Shown here: piece after piece, positions 1 to 5,102 of the stretch | How the letters are laid out: every line of letters starts with the position of its first letter | Position numbering within the stretch: the stretch's first letter is position 1 | Source: Clostridiales bacterium | GTDB taxonomy: Bacteria > Bacillota_A > Clostridia > Lachnospirales > Lachnospiraceae | DNA length: 5,327 nt | Direction of reading: 5' to 3' | NCBI GenBank assembly: GCA_030154385.1 | Contig: JASKJZ010000205.1 | Location: 1 to 5,327 of the forward strand | Made by a program: the position numbers and the translations under genes | Notes under the pieces: generated by a model | What the model saw: only the letters and a program-made list of their open reading frames with translations | Told to the model about the DNA's origin: nothing | The model's database searches: none

Positions 1-1760
1 GCATGGTTACTAGTCAAAATGGACTTGCATCTATATTGACTTAACATTTTGGTGGAGGCGAGGGGAGTATCTCCCCGTACACACACGCAGTCTGTGCCTC
101 CGTTTCGATTTATATCAGCGATGTCTCCATCACTTGCTTTACTTTCATTTATACTTCCTATCGATTTGCTATCATCACCCCTTTCTTCCTTTTTATTAAA
201 ATTTGCCGCCAGAGCAGGTAACTCGGGAAGAGTTAAATCGGGGTGGAAGTTGAAGAACACTTCAACACGACTTTCAAAAATCAATACCCTGTCTACATAA
301 AACTCTATCAGCTTCTTTGTAGTGGATAATTGACCGTTTTCGAGAAGCTTTCTCGCCTTCTGGAAGCTTTCTTTTAACTGCTCGACACTTACTTCCTTTA
401 CGTCACATTCATCACAAATTTGATTGTATCTGCACTCGACTTCAATCTTTTCATTTTCAATCTCAGTAAGCTTTTCAGCCAACGCCGCCGAACCTGTTTT
501 TGTGACAAGCCCTACCAGGTTGTTGATTTCTTTTTTCAATTCATTCAGCCGTTTACTGAGATTATCCCTTGTCCTTACTATATCTGCGTTTTTGTTAACC
601 TGGTATTTTTTATATTCTGCTGCAATCTTAGGGATTATCTTCTCGTCGAATACGTATTGCGCCAGCATATCAAGTACGAAAGCTTCAATATATTCACGCC
701 TGATTTCCTTGTTCGGGCAGATATGCTTCATTTGTCTTCCGGTACAGCGATAAGTAACATGCAGCTTTTTGTTTCTGCCGGTCATTTTTTTATTTCCGGC
801 ATATACATGTCCGCACTCTCCGCAAAAGATTTTACCGGATAAGAGGTATATTTCTTTAGCCCTGTTGCAAGCTCTGACACCTTTTCTCCTCTCGATTTTT
901 CTTTTTGCCATTTCAAATTCTTCTTTAGTAATTATAGGTGGCACAGCACCTTCAATTCTTATAATCTCATCATCCGGCTTATAAGCATTGCCATTTCTTT
1001 TGCCATCCATGTCCTTCGATACCAGCTTGTTAAAAACGTAGACTCCGATATACTTTTCATTCCTTATAATATTGTGTAAGGAATTTTTTCCGAAGCTCCG
1101 GCCTGTTTTTGTTTTATAGCCTTGACGGTTCAACTCCTTGATGATTTTAATATAGCCGTTTCCTTCATTGAACATCTTGAAAATCAGCCTTACAGCATCC
1201 GCTTCTTTTTCGTTAATTACAAGCTTTTTAGTCTCCGGATCAACATCATAGCCAAGTGGAGGAAGCCCACCGGTATGAAGTCCTTTAATGGCATTTTCAT
1301 TCATGCCCTTCCTTACTTCACGGGAAAGGTTTTTGCTGTAATACTCCGCCATTGCCTCAAGCACGGATTCAAGAATTATACTCTCAGGACTTTCTTCATC
1401 CAAATACTCAAGGACACTTACAAGTGAAACACCGTGACGTTTAAGCTCCATACGGTAGCCTATACTGTCCTGTCTGTTTCTGGCAAACCGGTCAAGCTTA
1501 TGCACTAGAACAACATCAAACTGACCTTCTTTTGAGTCCTGTATCATTCGCAGGAATTCCGGGCGATTGTCCGTCATGGCAGATTTTGCCCTGTCAATAT
1601 ATTCGGCCACTATTATTATGTCATTTTTCTTCGCATAATCCTTTATAGCTCGAAGTTGAGCATCTATTGACTCATCACGTTGGTTATCACTTGAAAACCT
1701 TGCATATACTGCTGCACGAACTATATGTTTTTTAGAACGTATTTTGTCCAGTATTCCCAT
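1..1760 (-). CDS. Large serine recombinase (site-specific integrase), 3' end beyond the window
   Basis: Site-specific recombinase that would integrate and excise the element by serine-linked double-strand cleavage and strand rotation. 586 codons are visible in one unbroken frame. The resolvase-type catalytic domain covers about residues 13-155: YARFSSDNQ at 19-27 carries the likely nucleophile Ser23, and KLDRFARN at 88-95 carries the conserved arginines. A 'Recombinase' DNA-binding domain follows at about 160-275. A zinc ribbon uses Cys313, Cys316, Cys339 and Cys348, and a charged coiled-coil segment spans about 377-445. The ATG start is preceded by AAAGGAG (1777-1771) with a 10-base spacer, 28 bases after the stop of the small upstream gene, so the two are probably cotranscribed from the promoter near 2062-2090. 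Oddity: no stop codon occurs before the window edge, and residues 562-571 are encoded by a tmRNA 3'-end-like sequence, so the final residues may come from flanking DNA. The family call is secure; the target site is inferred. Confidence 0.95.
   Translation of the reverse strand, partial: MGILDKIRSKKHIVRAAVYARFSSDNQRDESIDAQLRAIKDYAKKNDIIIVAEYIDRAKSAMTDNRPEFLRMIQDSKEGQFDVVLVHKLDRFARNRQDSIGYRMELKRHGVSLVSVLEYLDEESPESIILESVLEAMAEYYSKNLSREVRKGMNENAIKGLHTGGLPPLGYDVDPETKKLVINEKEADAVRLIFKMFNEGNGYIKIIKELNRQGYKTKTGRSFGKNSLHNIIRNEKYIGVYVFNKLVSKDMDGKRNGNAYKPDDEIIRIEGAVPPIITKEEFEMAKRKIERRKGVRACNRAKEIYLLSGKIFCGECGHVYAGNKKMTGRNKKLHVTYRCTGRQMKHICPNKEIRREYIEAFVLDMLAQYVFDEKIIPKIAAEYKKYQVNKNADIVRTRDNLSKRLNELKKEINNLVGLVTKTGSAALAEKLTEIENEKIEVECRYNQICDECDVKEVSVEQLKESFQKARKLLENGQLSTTKKLIEFYVDRVLIFESRVEVFFNFHPDLTLPELPALAANFNKKEERGDDSKSIGSINESKASDGDIADINRNGGTDCVCVRGDTPLASTKMLSQYRCKSILTSNH
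50..76 (-). other. tmRNA (ssrA) 3'-end-like sequence, probable attachment site
   Basis: Read on the minus strand, bases 68-50 are ACTCCCCTCGCCTCCACCA. This splits as the end of a T-loop (ACT), T-stem 3' half (CCCCT), a seven-base acceptor strand (CGCCTCC), discriminator A and CCA, as known for Firmicutes tmRNA. The opposite T-stem strand GGGG (76-73) is present, but the seven-base loop is AGATACT instead of the usual TTCGA-type loop. No tmRNA body or tag reading frame lies to the right, where the recombinase gene is. This is therefore a 3'-end fragment, as produced when an element integrates at the ssrA 3' end and leaves the intact gene at its other end. The tmRNA match rests on family knowledge, not an alignment to the host gene. 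Confidence 0.65.
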
Positions 1761-1788: not shown

Positions 1789-1956
1789 TCATCCTGCTTG
1801 AAAGGTAGGGGTTTCAGCATCATCTTCAATGTCATCACTCTGTTCAAAGATACTGTCCAGCGCTAGTAAAACAAGTTTTGCATCCGGTACTGTATTACTT
1901 TTGGAAAGTTTAATCACAGCATTTAAGATGCGTTTATCCTTTGAATAGATTTTCAT
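1789..1956 (-). CDS. Small acidic protein of unknown function, upstream of the recombinase
   Basis: A 55-residue protein that I do not recognise. It begins MKIYSKDKRIL and its first half is basic and probably helical. The tail is strongly acidic (EQSDDIEDDAET) and ends TFQAG. No signal peptide, membrane segment or cysteine motif is visible. The frame could be extended to a GTG at 1974, but the ATG at 1956 is preferred because GAGGAG (1972-1967) lies 10 bases before it and overlaps the region just after the GTG. It is the first gene after the promoter at 2062-2090 and sits 28 bases before the recombinase. That order suggests a recombinase accessory or regulator, such as a directionality or control factor, but nothing in the sequence proves it. 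No helix-turn-helix can be claimed. Confidence 0.7.
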   Translation of the reverse strand: MKIYSKDKRILNAVIKLSKSNTVPDAKLVLLALDSIFEQSDDIEDDAETPTFQAG

Positions 1957-2055
1957 ATAAGTAACACTCCTCACCGCTCAGGCAGGAAACGAAAGAATAT
2001 AGCTCAAAATTCCATCGATATTCATTTGTCAATGTCCATTACATATAACATCCCA

Positions 2056-2119: not shown

Positions 2120-4663
2120 TTATTCAAAATACTGTTTAGATTTTTTTGATAGAATAAACCGTTTAACTTCATCGATAGAGCCGGTCACACGGCAATCCGG
2201 CAAAGCCTTTATAACCCTGTCACGGTAGTTTCCCCCTACCTTAAGTCGTGAATCCAGAATTGAAATCACGCCGGTGTCAGTCTCATTTCTGATCAAGCGC
2301 CCAACACCCTGCTTAAGCTTGATAATCATTTCCGGGAAAACTACTTTGTTTTTATATTCGTCTGCACTGTCATACAGGGTTTGTTCATATTCCGATATTG
2401 GATCAGGGACTGCAAACGGAAGTTTTACAATTATGAGAGAGGATAACGTGTCACCGGGAACATCAATGCCTTCCCAGCAATTACCGGAAGCAAACAGGAC
2501 ACCGTTTTTGCTTTGCTTGAACGCATCAATCGGGTTAATTGACCCCTTCCCCATTTTGTAGACGGGAAATTGTTTTATCCTGCATGAAACCTGATTATAA
2601 ACAAGTTCCATCACTTTATATGATGTAAACAAAACAAGAGTATGGCCATAAGTAGCTTTTATCAATCTCTCCACTTCATCCGAAACAGCCTTGATATACT
2701 TTGGGTTTTTGCTGTCAGGAAATGGTGTTTTATCAGAAATATACAAAAGGCTGTTTTCAGAATAATTAAATGGTGATTTCTTGCTTGTCTCATCCAATCT
2801 ATCCGGCCTTACTCTATCAATCCCAATATTCTTTTTAATATGCGAAAAGCATCCGCTTACCGATAACGTTCCCGAAGTCAAAACTATTGGAATGGACTTG
2901 CTCCAGATATCCTCATAAAGCAAATTTTCCAGCCCTTTCGGTATAGAACACAAAACCGTTTTCCCGGTAAATTTAATATCTCCTCCAGGTATCTCAATCC
3001 AGTAGACTATATTCCGGCAATCAAGATATACCTTAAACCGGTCTACCAGTTCACGTAATGACCGCAATATATATTTATAAATGCTTTTAGGCCTGTCTTT
3101 AAGACAAGAACTATCTTCAAGCATGCCTATCAGACTTTCCAGTGTATAAATAACGCTCTTTATAGTCTTTTGTGCTGTTGGTGTTATAACGGTTTTATAT
3201 CTTTCGGTATCATCTTCCGTATCATAATCCAGTACTGGTTTCTTGAGTTCATCAAACAGGTTATTATTCAGTGTGGTCAGTCGGTTACAATAACTATCGA
3301 TGAGCTTTGTTGTTCTCTCCTGTCTATACTTCATTTTGAGAATGTAGCTCATCAGTCTGGGAATCTCATGGCTGGTTATGCTGTTGCCATACATCTGTCT
3401 TGCAGCACCTATCAGCTTGTGTGCCTCGTCAATGATAACTGCCTGATAATTCGGAATCAGTGGAGATAAGCCTTTACTCCGGTGTCTTACGTCTGCAAGC
3501 AAATAATTGTGATTACATATCTGAAAATCATGGTTGTAGGATTTTGCATGTTTAAGATATCTGTTGTAACGGCACGTCGAAAACATATCGCACTTCGAAT
3601 TGCATTGGGAAGAGACACAGATTCTGCTCTTCACATAGCATGAAAGGTTGTCATAATCATCAAGATCAATAGTCAGAAAACCCGCTGACCTCAATTGATT
3701 CAGAAGTTTTTCTACTGCAATATCCTTTTCATTTTTATTGTTTTTTGCAGATAAAGAAGCTGTATAGTCATTGAGCCGTTTATCACAGATATAATGCTCT
3801 TTTCCTTTTCGTATCACACAGGATAGTGGCTTATCTATTAGACCGCAACTCATAAGTATCTTTGAAATTTCAGGTATGTAATCATAAGCAACCGCTTTTT
3901 GCAGAGCAATACTTGAAGTTGATATAACGACAGGCATTTTGGAAGACATATAAAAATCGTTACTTAAAGGATAGGACGTTCTTATCCGATTGAAGTTTTT
4001 ATTATTCAACCGATGAATAATGGCTGCAATTATATATGCATGCGTTTTACCTATACCGACTTCTGCTTCACAAAGGGATATATTGCCTGTCTGAAGTGTC
4101 CTGAATATCATCTCTGCAAGTTCTATCTGGCTTTTCCTTATGGCATAGCCATATTCAGGAAGCTCTTCTTTAAAAATTTTATTTATGATGAGAATAAAAT
4201 TTTCATGTGCATCAGGTTTTGCAGAAATTGTAGCAACAGGCTCATAAGGTTCTATGATATTCTCGGATAATTGGGAATCAATTTCCGAATTATCTTTTAT
4301 TGCTACAAACGTTTGCTTCCCAGCTTTTCTAACATCTTTCTCTTTTGCGAAACCATTTATCTGTGAAACCGATCCATCTGCTCTGTTCGTGGGTTCTTTA
4401 TCTAAAACGAACATCTTTATGATTCTTTCTGCAATTTCTGCGTGTTTACTTTCTGTCACAGGCTTTTTAGTAAAGAACAAATACTTCTTTTCGTGCGTGA
4501 GACAATTTATTGCTTCATACTTATATACATTTCCGGTATAGTTTTCAGCCAATAGAAACTTATTGACCTTGAATACTGCTTTAATCTTTTCATTGAAGCA
4601 TCCTGCCTGAATCAGGCTATCTCTGATGCTCTGCACCGAATAATCAATGTTATTTCCCTCCAT
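2120..4663 (-). CDS. dinG: DinG/XPD-family ATP-dependent DNA helicase with iron-sulfur cluster
   Basis: Superfamily 2 helicase of the Rad3/XPD/DinG type; family members unwind DNA 5' to 3' using ATP and a 4Fe-4S domain. Numbered from the 4663 start (847 residues): Walker A AEVGIGKT at 200-207; likely cluster ligands Cys293 (in KGKEHYIC), Cys354, Cys358 and Cys364; ICNHNYLL at 382-389; Walker B box DEAH at 412-415; motif III LTSGTLS at 595-601; motif IV LFTSYKVM at 678-685; motif V CWEGIDVPGD at 729-738; motif VI QGVGRLIR at 785-792. All look intact. About 150 residues precede the helicase core and match no domain I know; no exonuclease motif is visible, unlike the longer Firmicutes exonuclease-helicase fusions. 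The frame is open to an ATG at 4699, but that codon directly abuts its only GCAGG, whereas 4663 has GGGGAGG 11 bases upstream. Its role in the element is inferred, perhaps processing or repair of element DNA. Confidence 0.92.
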   Translation of the reverse strand: MEGNNIDYSVQSIRDSLIQAGCFNEKIKAVFKVNKFLLAENYTGNVYKYEAINCLTHEKKYLFFTKKPVTESKHAEIAERIIKMFVLDKEPTNRADGSVSQINGFAKEKDVRKAGKQTFVAIKDNSEIDSQLSENIIEPYEPVATISAKPDAHENFILIINKIFKEELPEYGYAIRKSQIELAEMIFRTLQTGNISLCEAEVGIGKTHAYIIAAIIHRLNNKNFNRIRTSYPLSNDFYMSSKMPVVISTSSIALQKAVAYDYIPEISKILMSCGLIDKPLSCVIRKGKEHYICDKRLNDYTASLSAKNNKNEKDIAVEKLLNQLRSAGFLTIDLDDYDNLSCYVKSRICVSSQCNSKCDMFSTCRYNRYLKHAKSYNHDFQICNHNYLLADVRHRSKGLSPLIPNYQAVIIDEAHKLIGAARQMYGNSITSHEIPRLMSYILKMKYRQERTTKLIDSYCNRLTTLNNNLFDELKKPVLDYDTEDDTERYKTVITPTAQKTIKSVIYTLESLIGMLEDSSCLKDRPKSIYKYILRSLRELVDRFKVYLDCRNIVYWIEIPGGDIKFTGKTVLCSIPKGLENLLYEDIWSKSIPIVLTSGTLSVSGCFSHIKKNIGIDRVRPDRLDETSKKSPFNYSENSLLYISDKTPFPDSKNPKYIKAVSDEVERLIKATYGHTLVLFTSYKVMELVYNQVSCRIKQFPVYKMGKGSINPIDAFKQSKNGVLFASGNCWEGIDVPGDTLSSLIIVKLPFAVPDPISEYEQTLYDSADEYKNKVVFPEMIIKLKQGVGRLIRNETDTGVISILDSRLKVGGNYRDRVIKALPDCRVTGSIDEVKRFILSKKSKQYFE

Positions 4664-4674
4664 CTTGGAATGTA

Positions 4675-4681
4675 CCTCCCC
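4675..4681 (-). promoter_or_regulatory. Ribosome binding site deciding the helicase start
   Basis: GGGGAGG (4681-4675) precedes the ATG at 4663 by 11 bases. The upstream in-frame ATG at 4699 has GCAGG touching it with no spacer, so initiation at 4663 is favoured. The longer form would add 12 residues. Confidence 0.6.
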
Positions 4682-4722
4682 GTCATTTTTAATATTCATC
4701 CTGCAAATTGAACAGGATTGCC

Positions 4723-4836
4723 GGGCAGCACAATGCTATGGCAGACGACCAAACTGTCATATTGAGTTGCTTTTAATACACATAATTCGCATCACAGAAT
4801 ATTAGCATCCCGTCTGCCACAGTAGTTCTGCTGCCC
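4723..4836 (-). repeat. Two-part long inverted repeat upstream of the helicase
   Basis: Two nested perfect pairings form one extended stem: GGGCAGCA (4723-4730) with TGCTGCCC (4829-4836), and TGGCAGACG (4739-4747) with CGTCTGCCA (4811-4819). They are separated by an almost symmetrical internal loop of 8 and 9 bases and enclose 63 bases. The 17 paired bases without a mismatch are unlikely by chance. There is no T-run after it, so it is not an ordinary terminator. It lies just upstream of the helicase ribosome binding site and would be transcribed as part of its leader. It could be an RNA control element, or a DNA site such as an origin or nick region. Confidence 0.7.
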
Positions 4837-5102
4837 AACGACAGCGATTTATTAAAGGCATTTCAGGCAGCTTGCAGTTTACAAGCATCATAAAAGCCAC
4901 CGCAATTCTCTCTCAAATTTTGGCGTGCATTTTCCCACCCTCCGGGTGAGCCGTCCCTTGTCGGTGAAGATAGCCAGACGGAAGTATCATTATGCCTTTT
5001 ACGGGTCATGGCAATTTGGCAGTACCACTGCCAATTCAAAGCCGGAAGTTTATCGCTCGGAGTAAGACTACTCTGTCGTTGCGCTTCCGCTTACGTCGCT
5101 TT
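4836..5102 (-). ncRNA. Candidate structured RNA or structured leader, family not recognised
   Basis: This gene-free stretch holds many local stems: TTGGCAGT/ACTGCCAA with a 3-base loop (5016-5034); GAGTA/TACTC (5060-5073) inside CGGAAG/CTTCCG (5043-5048 with 5084-5089), itself flanked by AAAGC/GCTTT (5038-5042 with 5098-5102); GACGG/CCGTC (4951-4955 with 4977-4981); CACCC/GGGTG (4936-4948); GCTTG/CAAGC (4870-4886). A 9-base match, CAACGACAG (4836-4844) with CTGTCGTTG (5073-5081), could close the whole domain. It resembles no riboswitch, T-box, RNase P, 6S or group II intron core that I can recall. An open frame (5090 to 4863, ATG at 5009) also crosses it but lacks a ribosome binding site. The strand is assigned from the flanking terminator and helicase. 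Confidence 0.4.
4887..4916 (-). promoter_or_regulatory. Possible promoter for the helicase
   Basis: TTGAGA (4916-4911) and TATGAT (4892-4887) are each one base from the sigma-A consensus and are 18 bases apart. Transcription would begin near 4880, giving a leader of about 215 bases that includes the two-part inverted repeat. A local promoter is expected because a terminator separates the helicase from the upstream gene. The site lies within the structured region, so it may also be coincidence. Confidence 0.4.

Follow-up and report, generated by a model that had tools for sequence, protein, structure and literature searches.

The 5,327-nucleotide stretch analyzed here (hereafter the window; contig JASKJZ010000205.1 of assembly GCA_030154385.1, Clostridiales bacterium, Lachnospiraceae) carries a gene for a large serine recombinase whose open reading frame (ORF) runs across the 3' end of ssrA, the gene for transfer-messenger RNA (tmRNA). 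Features are listed in table 1; in labels, L denotes a locus, G a genome or viral contig, and P a protein, with P0001 being the window recombinase. The ORF has 586 codons, starts at position 1760 on the minus strand, and runs off the left edge of the window. Its Resolvase, Recombinase, and zinc ribbon matches (118.4, 84.1, and 53.2 bits, respectively) all exceed curated cut-offs. The initial annotation had the gene ending at the ssrA piece; instead, the ORF crosses the piece in frame, translates it as TPLAST without a stop, and leaves the window open. The locus is almost certainly an integration scar at ssrA, and the window is best explained as attR, the recombinase-side end of an element whose own large serine recombinase integrated it into ssrA. 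Comparisons with relatives further suggest that the recombinase gene is probably split by integration, with the attachment site of the circular element (attP) lying inside the gene.

Table 1. Features of the window, with coordinates, strand, and basis of assignment.
Feature	Position	Strand	Basis
Flank beyond attR, putative host DNA and source of recombinase tail codons (KMLSQYRCKSILTSNH...)	1..49		Relatives' tails unrelated past core
Large serine recombinase (Resolvase, Recombinase, zinc ribbon), open at window edge	3..1760	-	ORF and domain matches
ssrA (tmRNA) 3' end, 19 bases with discriminator and CCA; attR core	50..68	-	Exact match to L001, L161, L163
13-base core CTCGCCTCCACCA; attP dyad center on its second base	50..62	-	Center by own arithmetic
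T-arm-like hairpin GGGGAG-ATA-CTCCCC, 5' part element sequence	62..76	-	Sequence; Rfam partial match 50-76
P' arm CTGCGTGTGTGTA	78..90	-	Exact inverted repeat of arm after ssrA in G023 and G073
61-residue ORF upstream of recombinase	1789..1974	-	Relative adjoins recombinase L002
DinG/YoaA-like helicase, 859 residues, probable element cargo	2120..4699	-	Below NCBIfam cut-offs
dinG RNA motif (RF03082), upstream of helicase	4892..4991	-	Rfam 57 bits, gathering 46.9

The ssrA piece is an exact but partial copy of a tmRNA gene. Minus-strand bases 68-50 read ACTCCCCTCGCCTCCACCA. ARAGORN detects an intact tmRNA gene in L001 whose final 19 bases are the same, and the tmRNA genes of L161 and L163 end in these bases too. 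Under equal base use, own arithmetic puts the chance expectation for an exact 18-mer in 2 x 5327 bases at about 1.5e-7 occurrences. The window contains only the 3' end and not a complete tmRNA, because ARAGORN finds no tRNA or tmRNA gene in it and the Rfam tmRNA match at positions 50-76 is partial and below threshold (8.1 bits, E = 4). The loop that joins GGGG to CCCC is AGATACT in the window and TTCGACT in tmRNA. Thus, two observations of the initial annotation, identity to a Firmicutes tmRNA end through CCA and replacement of the T-loop by another seven-base loop, are borne out. The 13-base core is also present at the sites of G001, G023, G073, G432, and L085. Within the order to which G001 belongs, matches to window positions 26-68 (L161-L163) are ssrA 3' ends with different flanks, and a search of viral contigs with the ssrA end plus flank gave no matches.

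Association with tRNA and tmRNA 3' ends recurs among related recombinases. Loci were gathered from a scan of species genomes (79) and from viral contigs (38), for a total of 117, and 85 are usable for analysis of gene ends (homology extends to query residue 480 with 150 bases or more past that point, and near-copies are excluded). The 18-base ssrA end, with at most three mismatches, occurs anywhere in 37 of 117 loci. At the 3' end of the recombinase, 40 of the 85 usable loci have an intact or partial tRNA or tmRNA 3' end: 32 have an intact convergent gene (18 tmRNA and 14 tRNA, the latter for Pro, Met, Gln, Gly, Ala, or Leu) and eight more have an ssrA fragment alone (seven antisense, one sense). 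Neither control yields a case, with 0 of 85 loci having an intact tRNA or tmRNA gene in the opposite direction at the recombinase 3' end and 0 of 85 having one in the 460 bases that precede the recombinase gene. In 33 of 34 testable loci, no stop interrupts the recombinase frame across the tRNA or tmRNA core, against 18.8 expected under a simple codon model that ignores relatedness. The single exception, L044, has a second and nearer core that its frame does cross, and read-through of the attachment site therefore looks like a general habit of this recombinase group. Serine recombinases located against tRNA 3' ends are those of L004, L005, L006, L023, L025, L027, L034, L039, L043, L073, L092, L094, L100, and L106.

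Use of ssrA by serine recombinases is not new. DsiB of the Dehalococcoides ssrA genomic islands was described in 2011 as an ssrA-specific serine recombinase (McMurdie et al., PMC3146451). Given this precedent and the intact tmRNA genes at 18 of the 85 related loci, the pairing of a serine recombinase with ssrA is not unexpected, contrary to the initial annotation. The loci reported here and DsiB also contradict the statement, in the Islander paper, that tyrosine integrases are the only known users of tRNA and tmRNA targets.

The window belongs to a rarer branch of these recombinases, in which the gene reads in the sense orientation. Its recombinase is codirectional with the ssrA piece, unlike those of the loci with intact genes and of seven of the eight fragment loci, which face the ssrA or tRNA gene. 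C-termini of the branch consist of TPLASTK, which is translated ssrA, followed by unrelated tails. Of the 120 homologues listed, from 4267 matches among the candidates scored, 112 have at least 480 residues; TPLASTK with at least five of seven identities occurs in 23 of these, and shuffled motifs average 0.29 with a maximum of 8. Counts for GGGEGSR (12; shuffles mean 2.17, max 16), VVEARGV (4; mean 0.15, max 4), and LPSPPP (2; mean 0.44, max 3) are not clearly above those of shuffles and were not used. Tails were compared across the window protein and P0004-P0008, excluding P0002 and P0003, whose ends read otherwise. Residue pairs of these six proteins agree in 77 of 120 cases in the eight residues before the core, in 60 of 90 in the core, and in 13 of 155 after it. 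With identity collapsing past the core, the tail is foreign to the enzyme; derivation from the flank of each host would give this pattern, and the initial view of a scar with bases 1-49 as flanking DNA gains support.

The sense layout is also present at the DNA level, in L085 and L148 (genome G023). In a FastTree phylogeny of 107 rows (27 sense, 58 antisense, and 22 unlabelled), at least seven changes between sense and antisense are required; 27 of 104 inner branches are weak, and this minimum is therefore given little weight. Derivation of the sense orientation by a flip of one element through a palindromic core was considered and rejected; the reverse-complement ssrA end that it predicts is missing from the recombinase side of the window. 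The C-termini of P0010, P0022, and P0025 apparently contain two successive translations of ssrA ends, possibly remnants of earlier integrations.

Sequences on either side of the core are consistent with an attP. The arm CTGCGTGTGTGTA, read at 90-78 on the minus strand, matches as an inverted repeat, at 13 of 13 bases, the arm found after ssrA in G023 and G073, which share the same arm and count as one case. None of 200 shuffles reaches 13 and the next best of 50 comparisons is eight bases, for an arm that is a simple GT-rich sequence. Arms are spaced by 15 + 13 + 5 bases and the site totals 59 bases, a usual size of attP for a large serine integrase. Own arithmetic places the dyad center at the T of CTCGCC, where the T-stem meets the acceptor stem. 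In the sites of G023, G432, and L085, identity to ssrA starts one or two bases before that core, so the additional identity in the window, ACTCCC, may be element sequence. Window positions 1..49 lack the ACACAC present in the P arm of relatives, and a search of viral contigs with the arm patterns gave no matches.

The other end of the element, which lies beyond the window, can be examined in relatives. There, intact ssrA is followed directly and in frame by a conserved C-terminal module of ∼35 residues. This small coding module adjoins an ssrA core in G001, in G023, and in the viral contig G432; G001 also encodes a recombinase with 90% identity to that of the window over residues 1-262. In G023 and G073, ARAGORN finds a complete tmRNA gene immediately upstream of the module. 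A profile search identified 22 module proteins among 395 candidates. The ssrA end is within the same ORF in 15 of the 22; all 10 sense ones use the PLAST frame and all five antisense ones the VEAR frame. None of the 22 has a motif from any of the four remaining frames, and seven have no ssrA end in the predicted protein. Nine of the 10 sense module proteins read through an intact T-arm (DRGSTPLAST or a near variant, judged by eye). The intact ssrA of these nine, and that in the DNA of G023 and G073, is the layout that the initial annotation foresaw for the far end. Across 391 sampled Clostridia genomes, four have module matches at E ≤0.01, and the convincing ones are confined to G001 and G073. 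No Pfam family matches the module at cut-off; hits for P0132 (E 0.088) and for P0025 (DUF3791, residues 606-632, E 0.1) score far below curated cut-offs. At L255 (12438-12954) in G001, a single ssrA core lies between two outward-facing modules, a layout resembling sense-type and antisense-type elements in tandem.

Together, the two ends suggest how a split gene would arise. In the circular element, the predicted order is recombinase, ssrA-like core, short linker, and C-terminal module, and strand exchange near CTC, where the T-stem of ssrA meets its acceptor stem, would split the gene. Following integration, the recombinase in the window would keep its catalytic and DNA-binding domains and take its last residues from ssrA and host flank, and the module would be left behind intact ssrA at the opposite end. 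On the minus strand, the far right end is predicted to have intact ssrA that continues in frame into LAST and then a linker containing TACACACACGCAG, with a module resembling YLYK...LPHL...MGR after it. Chances are about even for the fuller proposal, in which attP is inside the gene, only a circle or tandem encodes the full enzyme, and integration swaps the module for a host-encoded tail. The gene would then record the state of integration, which may be one-way until another circle or a neighbor supplies the module. That the module is a switch between integration and stable residence is a tentative and rather unlikely extension, and the structural part of the split is better supported than its proposed function. 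If the split is real, it would represent a built-in control of directionality for serine integrases, a class of enzymes used in genome engineering.

Reading frames are among the evidence for a single gene. At the core, the L001 recombinase is read in the frame of the antisense module at G001 C524, and the window recombinase in that of the sense modules. The PLAST frame is used by 23 sense recombinases and the VEAR frame by L001 and P0025. The latter is a natural fusion, a single ORF that combines recombinase and module with an antisense ssrA end. In the comparison of G023 with G073, the ratio of nonsynonymous to synonymous differences (pN/pS) from core to stop is 0.28, with 10, 7, and 25 differences at codon positions 1, 2, and 3, and ungapped identity past the stop is 54 of 200. 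For the linker, pN/pS is 0.40 from 18 changes, and constraint may extend over it. An attachment site inside the integrase ORF is supported by relatives, with no single complete element showing it.

Several observations count against a split gene, and some fit an ordinary ssrA scar, in which overlap of gene and site has no function beyond a variable and tolerated C-terminus and the module is independent, perhaps a directionality factor. ATG, GTG, or TTG is present between core and module in all three sense DNA loci, and the antisense core itself reads GTG, with P0129, P0132, and P0139 starting at or beside it. Because start codons precede the module or sit in the core, the module could be a separate small gene. 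Other lineages cross the core with short tails and have no module, and dsiB likewise overlaps its site without a proper stop, leaving the meaning of such overlap open there. The sense-type L085 crosses the core in a different frame. Among 30 core loci from 20 genomes of antisense relatives, the module is at the G001 locus only, implying that it is not needed for integration in general. No fused ORF was found besides P0025, nor was an intact sense-type element with both ends, and the window covers the recombinase side alone, with the far end outside. The recombinase of G023 lacks an internal part and is split over two frames, that of G073 is a remnant with a 204-codon open frame, and the full-length recombinase of G432 is out of frame with the module on the same contig. 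Between core and in-frame module, G073 has a strong hairpin followed by U residues (L320 1426-1500; -27.3 kcal/mol, z -5.7), which resembles an intrinsic terminator and is perhaps the element's replacement terminator for ssrA. The AlphaFold2 model of P0025 is uninformative over the module (block means of the predicted local distance difference test, pLDDT, are 29-61 from residue 591). Yet an ordinary scar does not readily account for the two of five DNA-level modules, both antisense, that lack ATG, GTG, or TTG between core and module, or for the use by all 15 core-reaching module ORFs of just two of six frames, PLAST, that of the 23 sense recombinases, and VEAR, that of L001 and P0025. The possible constraint on the linker and the natural fusion P0025 also speak against it, and we consider an ordinary scar the less likely explanation.

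Explanations that dispense with integration at ssrA fare worse. Capture of the piece, whether through illegitimate recombination or for use as a terminator or 3'-end signal, is another reading, in which it is not an attachment site of this recombinase; it is located at the end of a gene, and tmRNA 3' ends commonly have terminators after them. Capture is nonetheless very improbable given that 32 of 85 loci have intact convergent tRNA or tmRNA genes and no locus has one in the opposite direction or upstream, that inverted arms surround the core, and that tails diverge right past it. An assembly chimera that joined a recombinase contig to an ssrA repeat would be in keeping with a contig that is probably from a metagenome, a protein (P0001) known from one contig, and a repeat 50 bases from the contig end. 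But homologues on other contigs, including L148, share the junction and have different tails, leaving a chimera barely credible.

Among known systems, the precedent for a serine recombinase gene overlapping ssrA is DsiB, which differs from the window in layout. As in dsiB, which overlaps the ssrA repeat at its 3' end and has a stop only beyond the repeat (PMC3146451), the 3' end of the window gene overlaps the ssrA 3' repeat with no stop before it. The dsiB gene is on the reverse strand against ssrA, that is, antisense, whereas the window gene is sense and at the far side. The insertion point of DsiB was placed in the T-loop, and its gene belongs to a six-gene module that includes dsiA and recF-like, parB-like, and mom-like genes (PMC3146451), in contrast to the 61-residue ORF and DinG-like helicase of the window. 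Its authors suggested that DsiB is possibly fully functional only on a circle or beside an island holding the 3' gene fragment. The portion of PMC3146451 available to us names no such fragment; a candidate is identified here and, if the split is real, the 2011 speculation becomes a testable model.

The closest parallel to the proposed split is the SSV-type "suicidal" integrases of Archaea, in which the attachment site is within the integrase gene and integration divides the gene in two (PMC8371274), as is proposed here. In the SSV type, int(C) bears the catalytic domain, whereas here the catalytic part would stay whole and a short C-terminal module would be lost. The SSV-type enzymes are also tyrosine recombinases of Archaea and that of the window is a bacterial serine recombinase. 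The same 2021 review describes self-disruption of integrases as exclusive to Archaea, and in openly licensed literature we found no example of a self-splitting bacterial serine-family gene besides DsiB. The finding and its relatives speak against restricting self-splitting to Archaea as well as against restricting tRNA and tmRNA targeting to tyrosine enzymes. The best NCBIfam resemblance of the window recombinase is to CcrB of staphylococcal cassette chromosome (SCC) elements, at 187.4 bits relative to a cut-off of 900 bits for NF047343. Elements of the SCC type insert site specifically at the end of a host gene, rlmH. Unlike the setting of CcrB, ORFs of the window include no second serine recombinase.

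A relative of the 61-residue ORF upstream of the recombinase, 62% identical over 55 residues, is beside the L002 recombinase. The DinG/YoaA-like helicase, probably carried by the element, is preceded by a dinG RNA motif. Between the helicase start and the dinG RNA is a long inverted repeat (4714-4848), which gives a weak microRNA-type Rfam match at 4716-4843.
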